From Stieleria maiorica (GTDB lineage Bacteria; Planctomycetota; Planctomycetia; Pirellulales; Pirellulaceae), in contig NZ_CP036264.1 of the NCBI RefSeq assembly GCF_008035925.1, forward strand, positions 705,774 through 769,773: DNA of 64,000 nt. The letters are read 5' to 3'. This document shows positions 35,366-48,129 of the stretch, piece by piece. Made by a program: the position numbers and the translations under genes. Numbering within the stretch: the first letter of the stretch is position 1; each line of letters starts with the position of its first letter. The notes under the pieces are model-generated. The model made no database searches and was not told the origin of the DNA. It saw only the letters and a program-made list of their open reading frames with translations.

Positions 35366-35487
35366 GCCGGCCTGTTGATGTCATTCGATCACACGTGGGA
35401 TCAGCCGTTTCGCGCAAGCGTACGGGCCTCCAATCCCAACAAAATGCACTGTCGCCCGAAGGCTCGCGCCAAACGGCTGATTCAATC
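35366..35487. repeat. Dispersed hairpin element, family 1 (copy E)
   Basis: Borders and arms match copy D in reverse orientation: GGCCTGTTGATG, CGATCACACGTGGGATCAGC, then the arm to TACGGGC, a ~27-base centre that differs from copy D, and the arm GGCTCGCGCCAAACGGCTGA. Confidence 0.85.
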
Positions 35488-35491
35488 AACG

Positions 35492-35803
35492 CCCTCGTTC
35501 CCAGGCTCCGCCTTGGAACGCGATTTCGGTGTGGCTCCGCCACACGTCGCGGACCACCGCGAGGCGGAGCCTCCGGCACAACGTGTCCCCGGGCGGAGCC
35601 CGGGAACAAGGCGCAGGGCCGCTCGCTGACGCGTCCCGCTGGCATCGCCCTCGTTCCCAGGCTCCGCCTTGGAACGCGATTTCGGTGTGGCTCCGCCACA
35701 CGTCGCGGACCACCGCGAGGCGGAGCCTCCGGCACAACGTGTCCCCAGGCGGAGCCAGGGAACAAGACGCGGGGTCGCTCGCTGACGCGTCCCGCTGGCA
35801 TGG
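35492..35803. repeat. Tandem duplication of a 156-bp family-2 element
   Basis: CCCTCGTTCCCAGGCTCCGC begins at 35492 and again at 35648. The two copies differ at only a handful of positions, for example CCCCGGGCGG versus CCCCAGGCGG and a few bases near the end. Each contains its own inverted repeats (AGGCTCCGCC and GGCGGAGCCT; TGTGGCTCCGCCACA). Long frames pass through both on both strands, giving repeated peptides, but these are by-products. Confidence 0.9.
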
Positions 35804-41694: not shown

Positions 41695-41735
41695 TGCGGA
41701 CTGGCACACGCTGCAGGCCCGACTCACTGAATGAC

Positions 41736-41785
41736 TTGATTGAACACCCCCCGAACGATAAGCTGGTCCACTCTGCAGAGTGGAC
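41736..41785 (+). promoter_or_regulatory. Promoter with overlapping 20-bp perfect palindrome
   Basis: TTGATT (41736-41741) and TAAGCT (41759-41764), spaced by 17 bp, are a plausible -35/-10 pair. The palindrome made of GTCCACTCTG and its complement (41766-41785) covers the expected transcription start. This is the classical place for a repressor operator. The regulator is not obvious; the ArsR-type protein upstream and an unlinked repressor are both possible. Confidence 0.6.
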
Positions 41786-41814
41786 TAACATTGCATTCGC
41801 GAAGGGGACGCACC

Positions 41815-42669
41815 ATGAGCATACCAGTCAAGGGCACCGCAACGACGACCTGTGATCTGTTGTTGTCAACGGACTACCGGGGAGGCCAGCGGTTGCGGCA
41901 GACCGTTGTCGGCGTAGGGGCAGATCTGACCCGAACCGTCATCCGCATCGTTCCCAGGGAAGCAAACCTGATCGGCGTCAAGAACAATGCTGCGACGTTC
42001 ATCTCGCAGGTCACGGTCTCACCGATCCAGAACATGTGCAATTTCAATTTGCGGATGCGGCGTTTCCAATTCGGTCGAGCCGCGTTGGGCGCCGACCACA
42101 TCGAGTTTGCCGCCCTGTCACGCGGCGACGTCCGTGCCCGGATTCGCGTCGCGACCACGCTGACGACCCTCAGCACGGATGCGGTTTCCACGAAATCCTT
42201 GACGCGCGCAGATGCCTTTGAATGCTTTGTCAACGCGGATGCGTCGACCGAACTGACATTGCCTCGGGCCGTCCGGGGCAACGTGGGGCTGGAGTACTTC
42301 TTCGCGGTCAATCCTACCGTCGATGGTGGGACACTGAAAATCCTCTGCCATCCTCGTGATGCGATTCAAATCAGAGAGTCTCAGAAACTTGATCCGGTGC
42401 AAGTGGTCGGCCGCAAGCCGACCAACGGAATCGTCGACGACCCCGTCGTCAAACGGGTGGTTTCGATCGAAGCGACTCGAACAGAAGCCAACAAAAACAG
42501 AACGTCGGTTGTCATGGCCTGTCGTGCGCCCGGGGTCTGGGTCGCCGAAAACCCGGCTGCCCAAGCGGTACCGCCCGACGAGACAGGCGCTATCGATCCA
42601 CCCTATCATTCACTTTGGACGCTGGGCGATACGGCTGAGGACCCCGAAGAAGAATCCGAGGAAACATGA
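41815..42669 (+). CDS. Protein of unknown family, first gene of the glycosyltransferase-sulfotransferase cassette
   Basis: A 284-residue soluble protein without signal peptide. The region of about residues 30-190 is beta-rich with a TLPRAVRGNVGLEYFFAVNP segment; such a strand-turn motif is found in viral tail-like or surface beta-helix proteins, but this is too weak to name a family. GVWVAENPAAQ and the acidic tail DTAEDPEEESEE end it. AAGGGG seven bases before the ATG at 41815 sets the start. It lies directly downstream of the palindromic promoter. Its stop overlaps the next gene's ATG by four bases. Confidence 0.7.
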   Translation: MSIPVKGTATTTCDLLLSTDYRGGQRLRQTVVGVGADLTRTVIRIVPREANLIGVKNNAATFISQVTVSPIQNMCNFNLRMRRFQFGRAALGADHIEFAALSRGDVRARIRVATTLTTLSTDAVSTKSLTRADAFECFVNADASTELTLPRAVRGNVGLEYFFAVNPTVDGGTLKILCHPRDAIQIRESQKLDPVQVVGRKPTNGIVDDPVVKRVVSIEATRTEANKNRTSVVMACRAPGVWVAENPAAQAVPPDETGAIDPPYHSLWTLGDTAEDPEEESEET

Positions 42670-42854
42670 TGAATACACCTGAGGAATCGACGGATAAAAC
42701 GGTGAACCAATCCTCCGAGACGGAACCGCATCACGCGATGGACGGCATCAGCGAGACGGTCGACGGCACGATCGATGCCCGAGCGGCAAATGCGTCCGCC
42801 CAGCAAAATTTCGGCAGCCCGCCACCCGGAGCGGAATACGGGTACGGGATCTAG
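42666..42854 (+). CDS. 62-residue acidic peptide of unknown function
   Basis: A 62-residue hydrophilic protein, rich in Glu, Asp, Ser, Thr and Ala, with no hydrophobic helix or cysteine. The last dozen residues (SPPPGAEYGYGI) are Gly/Pro-rich with two tyrosines, one next to an acidic residue. GAGGA precedes the ATGs at 42666 and 42669, and the stop TAG is directly followed by the ATG of the sulfotransferase fusion gene. The overlap with both neighbours supports real translation. It could be a substrate, carrier or regulatory subunit for the flanking proteins. Confidence 0.6.
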   Translation: MMNTPEESTDKTVNQSSETEPHHAMDGISETVDGTIDARAANASAQQNFGSPPPGAEYGYGI

Positions 42855-44726
42855 ATGACACCCAAGACGGTTTTGTTGGTCGCCGGTTCGGCCGGGTTTT
42901 CGACCCGCGATGTTTGGGAAGGCTATCGCCAAGGGCTGGCCCAGTGCGGCGTCAACGTGATTCCCTACGCGACGTTCTCGATGCTGCGCGTGCTCAGCCA
43001 CGAAGCGGTCGGCAACGATATCGTCGGCAAGGCCCATGACGTGCGCAACGGCGTCGACGCGGTCGTGTTTATCGACGGCATGCATTTCAGCGGCGAGCGG
43101 GCTTGGGTCCCGGCGACGCTGCGTGACTCGAACATCCTGACCGCCGTCATCAAGACCGACGATCCCTATTGCCCGATCGCGGACACACAGCGGCTGTACC
43201 ATCTGGTCTGCACCAACGAGCTGTACCAAAAGCCCGACGCCGAGGCCTACCTGCCGACCGCCACACTAGCGGCTCCGGAAATTTCCGCGCGGGTCGGTCA
43301 AGAACCCGAAAGCGACGTCGTTTTTATCGGCACGCTGTTCGAAGACCGAGTGGCGACGATGTTGAAACTTGCCGAACACTGCGACCGCCGCGGGCTGCGG
43401 TTTCGCATGGCCGGCAACTTCCCCGCCGACGCGACACAGTTCAAACGCATTCCCGCGGTCGATTTCTCCTCCGGAACGGTCCGCCCCGACGCGAAGTGGC
43501 GGATGTATGCGGCCAGCAAGCTGGTTCTGAACCTGTTCCGTGCGGCCGACCAAGCGGTCTCCCCCAGCCCACGCGTGTTCGAAGTCACCGCGCTCGGCAG
43601 TCCCGCATTGTTGACCGGCGTCCGACGCGACGAGGTGACTCGAATCTTCGGCGATTCGGTCTATCACTTCGACGACGCCGATGAACTGTGCCAGCAAGTG
43701 GACCGAGCGATCGCCAATGACGCCGACCGTCGCCGCCGCGTCGCACAGGCCAAATTGATCACCGACCAGGCACATCTGTACCGCCACCGCAGCGAAACCC
43801 TGCTAAAGTTGCTGGCCCGTCAGCGGGCGAGGTTTTCGACCCTCCGCGTGACCTCCGCCAGGCCCGATGCGGCCGACACTCCCGCCGAATCGGGAGCCAC
43901 GCTCAAACCCGATCGAATCCCCGAAGAGCGTTTGGCGTGGCTGATCGGTTGCGGACGAACCGGATCGACCTGGTTGTGCGAGATGCTTGACGCGCTGCCC
44001 GAGATGCGAGGTTGGCACGAGCCCTATTTCGGTCGTTTGGTTCAACATTTGGCCGAGCGGCCGGACGAACGCAAACGCCCCAGCGCTTTCTTCTTTGATG
44101 GCAACGGGAAAGCCGGCTTGCGCGCCATCCGAGCAGCGTTCTACGAAGTTGCAAAGGAACGCTATCCGGGGTTTGGCGCCGAGGCGTTGGTCGTCAAGGA
44201 GGTCAACACGCCGGAGTTGTTTGCGATGATCGAAGAACTGTTTCCGCTCAGCCGAATGTTGTTTCTGGTCCGAGATCCGTTCGACGTGCTCGATTCTTAC
44301 ATCGACATGCGCCAACCCGGCAGCTGGAATCGAGCGTCCAATGATCGGGCCTCCAGCGACCCGAAACATCTCGCCAAGCACATTGCCAGTGCGTACGCTC
44401 GCGCTGCCGACGCCTTTGAGGCGTTCGAAGTCTCGCAAAGGCTCCAGGTGCGGTACGAGTCGATGATCACCGACGCGGCAGGCGAACTGGTTCGGATCGC
44501 TTCCTTCTTGGGGACGCAAGCGAACGTGGATGAAATCGATCGCGTGGTGGATCGGTTTCGTTTTGACCGTCACAAAGACACCGGACCGGGAGCGTTTCGT
44601 CGCCACGGCCGACCGGGCGTCTGGCAAGACTCGCCGCATTTTACCCGCCAGGTACACGAAACGGCCGAAAGCATATTAGGCGAGCTGCGGGAACGATTCG
44701 GCTACACTGCAACGTCCCCGCGTTAA
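42855..44726 (+). CDS. Glycosyltransferase-sulfotransferase fusion protein
   Basis: A 623-residue protein with two parts. Residues 1 to about 320 look like a CgeB-type GT-B glycosyltransferase: TVLLVAGSAGFSTRDVWEGYRQGL, VVFIGTLFEDRVATMLKL, then SKLVLNLFRAADQAVSPSPRVFEVTALGSPAL. After a linker (~320-360) comes a sulfotransferase domain: GCGRTGSTWLCEML at 365-378 is the PAPS 5'-phosphosulfate loop, and FLVRDPFDVLDSY at 470-482 is the 3'-phosphate motif. It could add a sugar and then a sulfate to the same acceptor. No signal peptide, so it acts in the cytoplasm. It is the last gene of the cassette, with the start codon touching the previous stop. Confidence 0.85.
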   Translation: MTPKTVLLVAGSAGFSTRDVWEGYRQGLAQCGVNVIPYATFSMLRVLSHEAVGNDIVGKAHDVRNGVDAVVFIDGMHFSGERAWVPATLRDSNILTAVIKTDDPYCPIADTQRLYHLVCTNELYQKPDAEAYLPTATLAAPEISARVGQEPESDVVFIGTLFEDRVATMLKLAEHCDRRGLRFRMAGNFPADATQFKRIPAVDFSSGTVRPDAKWRMYAASKLVLNLFRAADQAVSPSPRVFEVTALGSPALLTGVRRDEVTRIFGDSVYHFDDADELCQQVDRAIANDADRRRRVAQAKLITDQAHLYRHRSETLLKLLARQRARFSTLRVTSARPDAADTPAESGATLKPDRIPEERLAWLIGCGRTGSTWLCEMLDALPEMRGWHEPYFGRLVQHLAERPDERKRPSAFFFDGNGKAGLRAIRAAFYEVAKERYPGFGAEALVVKEVNTPELFAMIEELFPLSRMLFLVRDPFDVLDSYIDMRQPGSWNRASNDRASSDPKHLAKHIASAYARAADAFEAFEVSQRLQVRYESMITDAAGELVRIASFLGTQANVDEIDRVVDRFRFDRHKDTGPGAFRRHGRPGVWQDSPHFTRQVHETAESILGELRERFGYTATSPR

Positions 44727-44750: not shown

Positions 44751-47700
44751 ATGCCAGCTGAGCCCAACCACGAAGACGATCCCGGCGATCCGGACGAGCC
44801 GGGGCAATCGACCTTCTTGCACGACAGCGAGTTGCCGAGCAGCAGTGACGACTTTGTTGATCTCACCAAGCAGACACATCGCAACGTCGGCGAACAGCAG
44901 GAGACGCTCAGCCACGCCAGTGATTCGTTGTTGGGAGAAACGATCACGCTCAATGCGGACGGTGACCATGTGCTGGGTAACTTTCGAATCCTCAGCAGAC
45001 TCGGTTCGGGCGGCTTCGGGACGGTTTACAAAGCCGAAGACCTGCGATTAGAGCGATTGGTTGCGCTCAAAGCCGCGCTGCCGCGCTCTTCCGACCGAGG
45101 TGACGGCCAATACAAACGCGTTATTCACGAAGGTCGCGCGGCCGCCGCACTCGACCACCCCAACATCGTCTCGATCTACGACGTGGCCGACCTGGATGGC
45201 AAACCCTACATCATCTCGCAGTTGATCGACGGCGCGACGCTGAAGGAGTGTCTTGCTTCGGGGCCGGCCAATCACACGTGGACCGCGGAAATCATGGTGG
45301 CGATCGCCCGGGCCGTCGATTATGCCCACGGCAAAGGCATCATTCATCGTGATTTAAAACCCGGCAACATTCTGTTGGATCAGAATGAAACCCCACATGT
45401 CAACGATTTCGGCATCGCCAAACACAGCGACAGCGATGAAACGATTTCCAACGAAAGTTCGATTATCGGTACACCGGCCTACATGTCGCCCGAACAAGCC
45501 GCCGGGCACTCGCGGGACGCGGACCGCCGCAGCGACATCTATTCTTTGGGCGTGATCCTGTACGAACTGGCGACGGGCGAAAAACCGTTTCGCGGCAGTT
45601 CGCGGATGTTGATTCATCATGTGATTCACACTGATCCACAGCCGCCGAGGATGCTCAATCAAAGCGTCCCCCTGGACTTGGAAACCGTTTGCCTGAAGTG
45701 TTTGGAAAAAGACCCTGATCGGCGTTATCAGACGGCCGCGGACTTGGCCGATGACCTGCAGCGCATTCTCGACGGCGATCCGATCCAGGCACGCCCCGTG
45801 TCGGGAATCGAGCACTTCGTTCGCCGCTGTCGCCGCTACCCGGGGACGACCGCCAGTGTGGCCGGATTGATGGCCGCGATCGTCATCGGATTGGCCGGAG
45901 TGACATGGCAATGGCGCCGCGCCGAGCACAATCGGCGACGAGAAGTGATCGCCAGAGAAGAGGTCGAACGCTCGCGTGAAGAACTCAAAGAAGAGGTCGC
46001 TTACTCCAAACAGATGCTGCACGACGCCGAATCAAAGCTGGCGTTCCAATCGATGACGGCCGGCGATCATCGTTTGGCACAGCAATCGCTCAACGTGCTG
46101 CGTCCGCTCGGCGACGTGGAGTTTCAGCTGTTGCGAAACATCGAAAGCCGTTACCAAGAACTCCTGCGCCATGTTGAAATGATCACCGACATCGCGATCT
46201 CCGACGACCAGCGGCTGATCGCCGCGACAGGACTGCGGACGCTGTTGGTGTGGGACACCGAAACAAAACGAATCGTTTACCGTTTCCGCGAAAAAGGAAA
46301 ACAACTCCGCTGCGTGGATTTTGCACGCTCCAGCCATCGTCTGGCTTGGGGGGGAGAACTCGGCAGAGTCTATCTGAAAACGATCGGCGTGGCGGATACG
46401 CCGATGCGAACATTGAACCATGGATCGCCTCTGGAAGTGATCCGTTTTTCCGCCGACGGTTCGAAACTGTTATCGGCCGGTGCTGGCGGAAACGTTGTTG
46501 TCTGGACGTCCGAATCTGGAACCAAGGACGTTGCCCACTCGGTCACGACCTCCACCATCCTTGCCGCCGATTTTCTAGGCGGCGAGGGGATCCTGACCGG
46601 CGATCAAAGTGGCCGGGTCATCCGCTGTGAACTCCCGTCGGGCCGTTGTGACGAGATCGCAAAAAACGCGTTTCCGATTCTGTCGCTGGACACCAACGCC
46701 GACGCCACCCAATTTGCCGCGGGGACGCAAGACAATCGATTCATGGTCGGACGTGTCGACGATCCTGAATCCGTTCGACGGATCATGACCACCCATGGCC
46801 CCATCATGGACGTCGAGTTCTGGGACCAAAAAGACGCTCTGGTCACGACCAACCTGTACGGCCAATTGGGCATTTGGAAGCTGCCGGACTTACACGTCCG
46901 CGAGTGCCATCGCTACTTTCAGGGCGTCGGACACTTTGCCATCGACCCGGGTTCCGATCGACTATTGCTCGGCGGTGGTGATGGCGGCGTCGTTTCGATC
47001 AACGTCGACGGCGTCCGGCCCGATGTCGTTCAAACCCCGCATGGTGCGATCACGGATCTGGCATTCGTCGACCAATCCATCGTGGTCTGTCATGCGACGG
47101 GCCCGGCCAGCCTGTTGCATCGGAGTTCCGGCCGAATGCTGCGAACGATCCCCGGCGAAACCGATTCCCCACCCGGCAACCACTCCCTGCCGCAGGACCT
47201 GACGTGCGTGGCGTGTTCACCAGACCAAAAGCGGCTCGGCTTCGGCACCAGCGACGGACGGATCTTGGTCTGGGAATCCGACACCGGTGAAATTCGCTTG
47301 CACGGCACGGCGACCGACAAGTCGATCGCTCAGATCGAATTGGCGGATGACGGCTTGAGCGCCTGGACGGGCGGATTCGACGGCAGCGTGCGGCATTGGG
47401 ATTTGACCAAAGCCGATTCCAGCACCGGGATCGCGGCCTTGGGCGGCGTCGTTCGCGGCTTGCGATTGTCTGGCGACCGGAGCCGCGCCGTGGCCGTTTC
47501 GGCCAACGGCGTTGCCGTCCTGATCGACGTGGACGAGCAAACGGAACTCGCGCGGGCCGAACTCGGCAATTCGTTGCACTGCGTCGCGTGGTCCGGCGAT
47601 TCATCCCAACTCGCGATCGGCGACGCGCGGGGAACCGTCCATCTGTATCCGAGTGACCTGTCCGGCGTCGCCAGCACCATCGAGGTGCACACCGGCCCGA

Positions 47701-47918
47701 TCAGCTCGGTCGCGTTCTCCCCGTCCGGCCAGCGACTCATCACCGCCGGCCATGACGAACAGATCGCGTTTTCCAATCTGGTGACCGGCCGATCCGGCGC
47801 GATCGTCGAAAGCAGTCATCCGATCAGCATTCGTGATTTGGCGCTCAGCGACGACGCCCAGTGGATGGTCACCGGCGACGTCGGCGGCAACCTCCGAATC
47901 TGGTCGGTCGCAAAGTGA
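44751..47918 (+). CDS. Transmembrane Ser/Thr protein kinase with WD40 repeats
   Basis: A 1055-residue protein. The kinase domain is at about 83-350: glycine loop LGSGGFGTVYKAEDL, catalytic Lys in VALKAA (~108), HRDLKPGNILL (~199), DFGIAK (~220) and the SPEQAAG activation segment. A transmembrane helix (TTASVAGLMAAIVIGLAGVTW) is at about 366-388, followed by a coiled-coil stretch (~392-425), then WD40-like repeats from ~470 to the end, seen in RHWDL and SLGVW-like repeats such as LLVWDTE, LGIWKLP, ILVWES, LRIWSV. Large kinases of this kind are common in planctomycetes; cytoplasmic kinase and external propeller are inferred. It starts 24 bp after the fusion gene and may be cotranscribed. Confidence 0.92.
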   Translation: MPAEPNHEDDPGDPDEPGQSTFLHDSELPSSSDDFVDLTKQTHRNVGEQQETLSHASDSLLGETITLNADGDHVLGNFRILSRLGSGGFGTVYKAEDLRLERLVALKAALPRSSDRGDGQYKRVIHEGRAAAALDHPNIVSIYDVADLDGKPYIISQLIDGATLKECLASGPANHTWTAEIMVAIARAVDYAHGKGIIHRDLKPGNILLDQNETPHVNDFGIAKHSDSDETISNESSIIGTPAYMSPEQAAGHSRDADRRSDIYSLGVILYELATGEKPFRGSSRMLIHHVIHTDPQPPRMLNQSVPLDLETVCLKCLEKDPDRRYQTAADLADDLQRILDGDPIQARPVSGIEHFVRRCRRYPGTTASVAGLMAAIVIGLAGVTWQWRRAEHNRRREVIAREEVERSREELKEEVAYSKQMLHDAESKLAFQSMTAGDHRLAQQSLNVLRPLGDVEFQLLRNIESRYQELLRHVEMITDIAISDDQRLIAATGLRTLLVWDTETKRIVYRFREKGKQLRCVDFARSSHRLAWGGELGRVYLKTIGVADTPMRTLNHGSPLEVIRFSADGSKLLSAGAGGNVVVWTSESGTKDVAHSVTTSTILAADFLGGEGILTGDQSGRVIRCELPSGRCDEIAKNAFPILSLDTNADATQFAAGTQDNRFMVGRVDDPESVRRIMTTHGPIMDVEFWDQKDALVTTNLYGQLGIWKLPDLHVRECHRYFQGVGHFAIDPGSDRLLLGGGDGGVVSINVDGVRPDVVQTPHGAITDLAFVDQSIVVCHATGPASLLHRSSGRMLRTIPGETDSPPGNHSLPQDLTCVACSPDQKRLGFGTSDGRILVWESDTGEIRLHGTATDKSIAQIELADDGLSAWTGGFDGSVRHWDLTKADSSTGIAALGGVVRGLRLSGDRSRAVAVSANGVAVLIDVDEQTELARAELGNSLHCVAWSGDSSQLAIGDARGTVHLYPSDLSGVASTIEVHTGPISSVAFSPSGQRLITAGHDEQIAFSNLVTGRSGAIVESSHPISIRDLALSDDAQWMVTGDVGGNLRIWSVAK

Positions 47919-47940
47919 TCGCACCGCCCGATCGCCGCCG

Positions 47941-48129
47941 TACGACGCCACTGTACGACGCCACTGTACGACGCCACTGTACGACGCCACTGTACGACGC
48001 CACTGTACGACGCCACTGTACGACGCCACTGTACGACGCCACTGTACGACGCCACTGTACGACGCCACTGTACGACGCCACTGTACGACGCCACTGTACG
48101 ACGCCACTGTACGACGCCACTGTACGACG
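47941..48129 (+). repeat. Tandem array, 13-bp unit x 14 plus partial
   Basis: TACGACGCCACTG is repeated 14 times without a change from 47941 to 48122, and a partial TACGACG runs into the double-hairpin element at 48126. It begins 22 bp after the kinase stop. Because 13 is not a multiple of three, all frames give a 13-residue repeated peptide; these are not genes. Confidence 0.97.

Follow-up and report, generated by a model that had tools for sequence, protein, structure and literature searches.

A gene for a 62-residue peptide, located in a 64,000-nt stretch of Stieleria maiorica DNA (the window), accompanies a gene encoding a glycosyltransferase-sulfotransferase fusion, and probably encodes a ribosomally made acceptor peptide that receives from the fusion both a sulfate, on tyrosine, and a sugar. 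That the gene 2 peptide is the substrate of the fusion is well supported but indirect; beyond this, we infer the tyrosine as the sulfated residue, the place of the sugar, export and the biological role. The recurrence of the peptide-fusion pairing in other planctomycetes suggests a family of modified bacterial peptides that has so far not been described. The features of the locus are as follows.

41735..41764, + strand: promoter-like box CTTGA-N19-TAnnCT, defined by invariant alignment columns in four upstream regions
41766..41785, no strand: perfect 20-nt palindrome GTCCACTCTGCAGAGTGGAC, a single exact site in the window
41815..42669, + strand: gene 1 (284 aa, ATG start), accessory protein, mostly-beta, of no known family
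42666..42854, + strand: gene 2 (62 aa), candidate precursor/acceptor peptide with C-terminus ...SPPPGAEYGYGI, its Tyr-x-Tyr tail common to peptides of other fusion loci
42831..42851, + strand: last seven codons of gene 2 (AEYGYGI), the Tyr-x-Tyr tail and proposed modification site
42855..44726, + strand: gene 3 (623 aa), GT-B glycosyltransferase and PAPS sulfotransferase fusion
44751..47918, + strand: Ser/Thr protein kinase with WD40 repeats (Pfam PF00069 and WD40 models)

The three genes of the original prediction, with their coordinates and lengths of 284, 62 and 623 aa, were confirmed from the sequence, as were the ATGA overlap of genes 1 and 2 and the direct abutment of the gene 3 ATG on the gene 2 TAG. 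This abutment is kept in 4/4 genomes (the window, G164, G197 and G172). The prediction had also called for a search of related genomes for all three genes side by side; these and the downstream kinase do remain clustered, both in the window and in three further genomes of the genus, but gene 1 lies outside the core of the module. The palindrome to which a promoter had been ascribed exists (one site in the window against none in 100 shuffles), but its promoter role was not confirmed: the palindrome is nearly intact only in G164, the closest of the three other cassette genomes, and is absent from G197 and G172, and it could at best be an operator in the closest relatives. Common to all four upstream regions are the CTTGA-N19-TAnnCT box, just 5' of the palindrome, and the gene 1 ATG. 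A promoter at this box is also putative, because a sigma-70 consensus scan lists no site there.

Gene 3 had been predicted to fuse a CgeB-like GT-B domain to a PAPS sulfotransferase, which agrees with its Pfam matches to PF13524 (residues 177-317, E 6.7e-19), PF13469 (364-555, E 4e-18, 66.9 bits against a cut-off of 27) and PF00685 (E 2.4e-12, 47.2 bits against a cut-off of 22). The GT-B domain occupies residues ~1-328, followed by a low-confidence linker (330-352) and the PAPS sulfotransferase domain (~357-620). In the predicted structure the C-terminal half folds as a sulfotransferase, a point on which the prediction could have failed, while the PF13524 match and the GT-B fold place the N-terminal half among GT-B (GT4-like) enzymes. 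Both motifs cited earlier for the domain calls, GCGRTGSTW and FLVRDPFDVLDSY, are present. PAPS sulfotransferases are recognized by motifs named 5'-PSB and 3'-PB, found here as GCGRTGSTW and R473...S481 in a domain that also exceeds the curated cut-off. In an alignment (A3) of 63 fusions, consisting of the window and 62 of the 120 matches listed among 179, residues W362, G365, R368, G370, S371, T372, W373, E389, K448, R473 and S481 are invariant in 63/63 sequences (5'-PSB and 3'-PB are named as in PMC9372746). Literature searches found no published description of the gene set, in line with the original prediction that no such system had been described, but the fusion itself is not peculiar to the window, with 179 proteins matching at E<=1e-10.

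Among the 50 Foldseek matches listed for the fusion, 14 are sulfotransferase chains, of which 13 are tyrosylprotein sulfotransferases (TPSTs) and one is NDST1. The nearest solved sulfotransferase folds among the matches listed are human TPST1/TPST2 and tick TPST (best E 1.9e-9, target TM 0.55-0.68, 17-22% identity); the TPST-like fold call comes from Foldseek, the VIA-align rows spanning the GT domain only. By sequence profile (A3), the sulfotransferase domain best matches CurM, retinol dehydratase and cytosolic SULTs, and no TPST appears among the 57 PDB sequences at E<=10. Thus, the link to tyrosine rests on the fold together with the peptide.

The peptide family is defined by its tail. Of 142 matches to the peptide, 120 are listed, and 118 of these carry YxY no more than 30 residues from the end, preceded by proline in 105 of the 118. 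The two listed sequences without YxY in the last 30 residues are P0164, in which YAY is followed by a glycine-rich extension, and P0243, a 128-aa ORF. Outside the clade of the window, the peptides have a twin-arginine leader: RR.F is present in 16/16 aligned Tat-type peptides, 14/16 match TIGR01409 at E<=0.1, and RR.F plus L/I/V/A occurs in 115/120 of the relatives listed. The only invariant columns among the 16 are R16, R17, F19, D41, Y63 and Y65. The gene 2 peptides of the window, G164, G197 and G172 contain no RR and do not qualify as Tat-type. Pairwise comparison of the final 21 gene 2 codons between three genomes of the genus gives dN of 0.04-0.07 against dS of 0.59-0.97, and the tail is under purifying selection in these genomes; the core in G172 is less conserved (dN 0.62-0.70 versus the other three genomes, with gap placement uncertain). 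Overall, the layout is that of a RiPP precursor, with a variable leader and a conserved C-terminal core that co-occur with a candidate modifying enzyme, the Tat-type leader being conserved as well.

At 20/21 loci the fusion is closely preceded by a short ORF that has YxY among its last 35 residues, against 16/3900 (0.41%) of the other ORFs of the same stretches under equal limits and with true peptides excluded; these loci are related, so the counts are not independent events. A first background count, with slightly different limits and true peptides included, gave 32/3455 ORFs. The set of 21 loci includes G761, where a contig end cuts the fusion after its GT half, and leaves out G496 (only fusion residues 282-618 found) and G431 (N-terminal part missing). 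In the remaining genome, G200, the peptide ends in HGYTYAGGVP and lies 1.8 Mb from the fusion, accompanied by a kinase and a repeat protein. A fusion match was found in 15/170 genomes of one planctomycete family. Strong peptide matches (E<=4.7e-15) occur in 13/170, all 13 with the fusion, as judged with a profile built partly from 12 of these same 13 genomes; the other two of the 15 (G431 and G496) show only part of the fusion. No strong peptide match occurs in the 155 genomes without a fusion match at E<=1e-30, and the six weak matches among them end no later than model position 45 of 65, short of the tail. The original proposal of one protein acting on one acceptor gains strength from gene 2, an acceptor candidate that almost always accompanies the fusion.

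Gene 1 behaves differently. Neither gene 1 nor gene 2 has a Pfam match at E<=1, and residues ~116-253 of gene 1 bear a borderline resemblance to phage baseplate/tailspike adaptor domains. Only nine relatives of gene 1 were found, and the gene occurs in 4/241 genomes of the bacterial family. At other fusion loci its position is taken by a repeat protein with no detectable relationship to it (hhalign probability 0.1, E 0.43). At 17/21 loci the peptide gene has a second protein gene next to it, namely gene 1 at four and that of the repeat protein at 13. The constant partner of the fusion is gene 2, not gene 1, which is not part of the core.

In the proposed precursor, a variable leader at the N-terminus would be followed by a short C-terminal tail carrying Tyr-x-Tyr. 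In the cytoplasm, the sulfotransferase domain would move sulfate from PAPS onto one or both tail tyrosines. The GT-B domain would use a nucleotide donor to attach a sugar to this tail as well, on the other tyrosine or another residue. With two active sites on one chain, both steps could take place on one bound peptide. In lineages with a Tat leader, the finished peptide may then be exported by the Tat pathway, which handles cargo already matured in the cytoplasm; the clade of the window lacks the Tat leader and has a different partner protein, gene 1. The kinase probably regulates the module.

A competing explanation, which we consider unlikely, is that the peptide is a protein anchor on which the glycosyltransferase places a first sugar at the tail tyrosine, after which the glycan grows and the sulfotransferase sulfates sugar, yielding a sulfated surface glycoprotein. 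We take this arrangement to resemble CgeA/CgeB of Bacillus spore crusts, where a small protein adjoins a PF13524-type glycosyltransferase in a spore-coat setting; to our knowledge, CgeA/CgeB involves neither a sulfotransferase nor a YxY tail. The GT domain of gene 3 is itself PF13524, the fusion P0054 carries the source annotation CgeB, and the one non-TPST sulfotransferase chain listed, NDST1, is a glycan enzyme, but the other 13 of the 14 are protein-tyrosine enzymes. A GT-only paralog bears on both readings. Across 397 genomes of the class, members of the GT subfamily (E<=1e-25) are either fusions (one of which is partial) or this paralog. The paralog has a separate sulfotransferase nearby and an upstream ORF that likewise ends in tyrosines (LYAGYFGGNE), in favour of the acceptor-peptide reading, but their spacing is YxxY, not YxY. 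At 5/5 paralog loci there is an O-antigen-ligase relative 4.7-6.2 kb downstream (PF04932 in the genome of the window) and a 220-236-aa gene, read as a putative sugar transferase, that has no Pfam match. The O-antigen-ligase-type gene fits a glycan role; however, no such gene was seen to recur beside the fusion, where 19 of the 21 loci and two partial ones were clustered.

It is still less likely that the enzyme modifies gene 1, the repeat protein or a cell-surface glycan, with the small gene acting as an adaptor, chaperone or localisation tag bound via YxY. The leader residues RR.F and D41 are as invariant as the tail, and a second protein at 17/21 loci would be consistent with such a role. 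On the other hand, gene 1 and the repeat protein have no detectable relationship yet interchange position while the tail stays constant, which makes them poor candidates for a common substrate. That gene 2 is merely a translated spacer coupling genes 1 and 3, with no peptide function, is highly improbable. The genes do overlap or abut in the genus of the window, but YxY persists in relatives where 16-206 nt separate the peptide stop from the fusion match, the G200 peptide exists 1.8 Mb from the fusion, and the tail is under purifying selection in three genomes. A peptide modified at its tail by the fusion remains our preferred reading; counting against it are the profile matches of the sulfotransferase domain to enzymes other than TPSTs, the weaker tail conservation in G172, the lack of a Tat signal in the peptide of the window and the distance between peptide and enzyme in G200.

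The closest known parallel is RaxX/RaxST of Xanthomonas, a sulfated tyrosine peptide and its TPST (PMC6637879; PMC9372746). RaxX is made on the ribosome as a 60-residue precursor in which an N-terminal leader precedes a C-terminal core with the tyrosine, and its gene adjoins that of a PAPS sulfotransferase (PMC6637879; PMC9372746); a small precursor with an acceptor tyrosine beside a sulfotransferase is likewise what 20/21 fusion loci present. Unlike RaxST, the planctomycete sulfotransferase shares its chain with a glycosyltransferase; the peptide tail contains two tyrosines, and the leader is Tat-type or hydrophilic, whereas that of RaxX is of the double-glycine type. In addition, a kinase and a further protein accompany the planctomycete pair, the named hosts are planctomycetes, and no RaxA/RaxB-like gene was recognised in the neighbourhood stretches read by eye. 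Tyrosylprotein sulfotransferases of human and tick are secretory-pathway proteins in which a glycosyltransferase domain is absent. They differ from gene 3 in setting and architecture (PMC9372746), and do not match it by sequence profile at E<=10, although their folds are the nearest solved ones among the matches listed for its C-terminal domain. Animal TPSTs mostly require Asp just before the tyrosine (PMC9372746), whereas the planctomycete peptides usually have Pro at that place. Phytosulfokine, made by a plant TPST, carries sulfated tyrosines at positions 1 and 3 (PMC9372746), the same Tyr-x-Tyr spacing as the planctomycete tail whose sulfation is proposed; it is a eukaryotic peptide, and no sequence relation is claimed.

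Bacterial TPST genes are described as sparse in a few lineages and often beside genes for extracytoplasmic proteins (cited as unpublished in PMC9372746), and raxST homologues occur in several phyla with other neighbours (PMC6637879). The available portions of these two papers mention no fused glycosyltransferase or YxY peptide family. According to a 2019 paper, no tyrosine sulfation other than that of RaxX by RaxST had been documented in bacteria (PMC6637879). The planctomycete system could be a further case, with a substrate candidate already named, and its enzyme could be a rare one that combines glycosyl and sulfo transfer in a single polypeptide. As a tentative extension, it is possible that planctomycetes make a class of ribosomal peptides, which most lineages export by Tat. 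A single enzyme with two domains would place either two sulfates or a sulfate and a sugar on their C-terminal Tyr-x-Tyr, and a dedicated eukaryote-like kinase would control the system. Such peptides would be a bacterial counterpart of phytosulfokine-like sulfopeptides and a case of bacterial tyrosine sulfation outside the RaxX type.

On reading the loci by eye, no protease, exporter or immunity gene was recognised. When 19 of the 21 fusion loci were clustered together with two partial loci, the gene groups extending past near relatives were those of the fusion, the kinase and the repeat protein, plus four two-member groups (each in two lineages). The kinase, which starts 24 nt downstream of gene 3 in the window, is a probable member of the module. 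It lies on the same strand at 12/21 loci, upstream at eight (one split in two ORFs) and downstream at four. At G770 it is divergent, and at G220 and G229 it is on the other strand ~0.8-1.0 kb past the end of the fusion; no kinase is present in the stretch at G761 or at the G200 fusion, and at G402, G453, G536 and G652 the upstream stretch is cut by contig ends within 1.3 kb. Given 106 kinase-domain matches in the genome of the window, the kinase-fusion association is suggestive, and the system may explain what one of the numerous kinases in these bacteria does. The same genome also contains APS kinase and TatC genes.

The three-gene cassette of the original prediction is present in the Stieleria maiorica genome, a single contig of 9,894,293 bases of which the window is G000:C1:705774-769773. 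All three genes lie on the same strand and a kinase gene follows.

Cassette genes and adjoining kinase gene (window coordinates)
41815-42669, + strand, gene 1, 284-residue protein
42666-42854, + strand, gene 2, 62-residue candidate acceptor peptide with a Tyr-x-Tyr (YxY) tail
42855-44726, + strand, gene 3, 623-residue fusion of a GT-B glycosyltransferase (GT) and a PAPS sulfotransferase
44751-47918, + strand, kinase gene starting 24 bases past gene 3

Named relatives include Rhodopirellula sp. JC639 (92% identity) and Planctomycetes bacterium TBK1r (86%). The palindrome to which promoter activity had been ascribed (perfect over 20 nt, 41766-41785) is real and occurs once in the window, but it is absent from two of the three relatives carrying the cassette; the conserved element is CTTGA-N19-TAnnCT just upstream of it, a candidate promoter at most. 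Elsewhere in the window, the ORF list shows a short tandem repeat at 47900-48110, which can be read without a stop in several frames on either strand, and repeated segments (RCGSATRRGPPRGGASGTTC) within overlapping open frames at 35400-35750.

Gene 2 is the constant partner of the fusion. Overlapping searches of 199, 397, 396 and 170 genomes yielded 21 fusion loci, the partial fusions of G431 and G496 being excluded. At 20 of these, a short ORF with Tyr-x-Tyr in its last 35 residues ends no more than 206 bases before the fusion match, against a background of 16 in 3900 other ORFs (at least 35 aa, six frames, same DNA). Tails include AEYGYGI (window), IHYGYGP, HNYDYDGGQ, SPYAYVDGGS, MPYPYHGG, LPYAYHEGPR and HYSYIPD. 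The sole exception is genome G200, in which the YxY peptide lies 1.8 Mb from the fusion, beside a kinase and a repeat protein. At this fusion-less site (L094, G200:C1:1739000-1749000), the peptide is followed by a 298-aa gene and then by a gene that reads, by eye, like a sulfatase.

Among 170 genomes of Planctomycetaceae, the family of genome G254, strong peptide matches were found in 13, every one of them a carrier of the fusion; the 155 genomes without a fusion match gave none. The two genomes with a fusion match but no strong peptide match are those with partial fusions. Counting all 15 fusion genomes, the co-occurrence gives a Fisher p of about 1e-17, a value that ignores kinship. Because the peptide profile was built largely from the same genomes, the informative part lies in the 155 negatives and in G200, which is not in the profile. 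Further, 28 of the 58 listed peptide relatives on contigs longer than 3 kb lie on a contig equal in size, to the base, to that of a listed fusion; shifting the sizes by small amounts gave 0 to 2 matches.

Peptides from lineages other than the window's clade have a twin-arginine leader, and the six invariant columns among 16 aligned peptides are two Arg and a Phe of the leader, one Asp and two Tyr. The profile search returned 142 relatives at E<=10. Among the 120 listed, 115 have the RR.F pattern and 118 have YxY no more than 30 residues from the end, preceded by Pro in 105 of these 118. In the window's genus the leader is missing and the tail is kept: over the last 21 codons, pairwise comparison of three genomes gave dN of 0.04-0.07 and dS of 0.59-0.97. 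The fourth genome, G172, diverges more (dN 0.62-0.70), perhaps partly from alignment.

The analysis establishes the parts, their predicted folds, their co-occurrence and their conservation; the substrate, the residues modified, the order of steps, export and biological role are inferred. Most likely, the peptide is a substrate sulfated and glycosylated by the fusion and, in Tat-type lineages, exported by Tat. The ribosomally made peptide would be bound in the cytoplasm by the fusion, which would sulfate one or both tail tyrosines with PAPS as donor and would also glycosylate the tail. Once complete, the peptide of the Tat-type lineages would leave via Tat. APS kinase and TatC genes were found in the window's genome. 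The claim of sulfation and glycosylation is specific and directly testable, and hence of high interest.

A paralog with the GT part alone, sharing 45-48% identity with the fusion's N-terminal half, occurs in the window's genome (L041, G000:C1:3712076-3725074) and in four others of the genus (L039, L040, L042 and L043). Its locus runs kinase, small gene, GT and a convergent downstream gene for a separate PF13469 sulfotransferase, and also holds a class V aminotransferase gene. The small gene encodes a basic 123-aa product with a Tyr-ending tail spaced YxxY rather than YxY (LYAGYFGGNE in the window's genome, LYTGYFCGND in G185). At E<=1e-25, in 397 genomes of the class, the GT subfamily comprises only intact or partial fusions and this paralog (14 genomes). 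That the same parts exist both as separate genes and in fused form is an argument for a single acceptor, or a single product, receiving both sugar and sulfate. In a rival reading, a glycan would be built on the peptide as primer and the sulfate placed on the sugar; its best support is that, in each of the five genomes, the paralog is followed at a distance of 4.7-6.2 kb by an O-antigen-ligase-type gene (PF04932). As to sulfation of the tail itself, its tyrosine spacing is that of phytosulfokine, in which both tyrosines of Tyr-x-Tyr are sulfated (PMC9372746), a parallel that is suggestive at most.

The nearest described system is RaxX/RaxST, in which a small peptide, made up of a leader and a tyrosine core, is encoded beside a tyrosylprotein sulfotransferase. 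The cassette follows this overall plan but departs from it in its fused glycosyltransferase, double tyrosine, leader, companions and host phylum. The review PMC9372746 describes bacterial tyrosylprotein sulfotransferases as sparse and often encoded beside genes for extracytoplasmic proteins; further cases were therefore expectable. As originally supposed, no described system with this gene set was found in the literature searched, most subscription journals lying outside it.

Conservation beside the fusion, predicted for both upstream genes, holds for gene 2; gene 1 is kept there in the window's genus, and at other loci the repeat protein stands in its position. The order at other loci is kinase, repeat protein, peptide and fusion; in the window's genus, gene 1 stands in place of the repeat protein and the kinase comes after the fusion. 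The repeat protein, built of repeats of about 100 residues (RSGRF...YRxFNSG...IEGIYEFL), adjoins the peptide at 13 of the 21 loci and at the separate site in G200; members of its family lie upstream of the peptide at loci L036, L037, L038, L060-L063 and L065. Three examples scanned gave no Pfam family above cut-off, and comparison detected no relation to gene 1. Gene 1, predicted to be mostly beta, has nine relatives, some in Stieleria mannarensis and Stieleria neptunia, and was found in four of the bacterial family's 241 genomes, each of which also carries the fusion. Three of its relatives (P0126-P0128) lie on contigs equal in size to those of fusions of about 60% identity. In G179, another genome of the genus, little of the cassette survives between the conserved flanking genes (about 5935-6178 of L044, G179:C76:16037-28195): the C-terminal 21 residues of gene 2, the N-terminal 38 of gene 3 and a short fragment of the kinase. 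The cassette can evidently be lost almost in its entirety. The whole S. maiorica genome gave 106 protein kinase domain matches.
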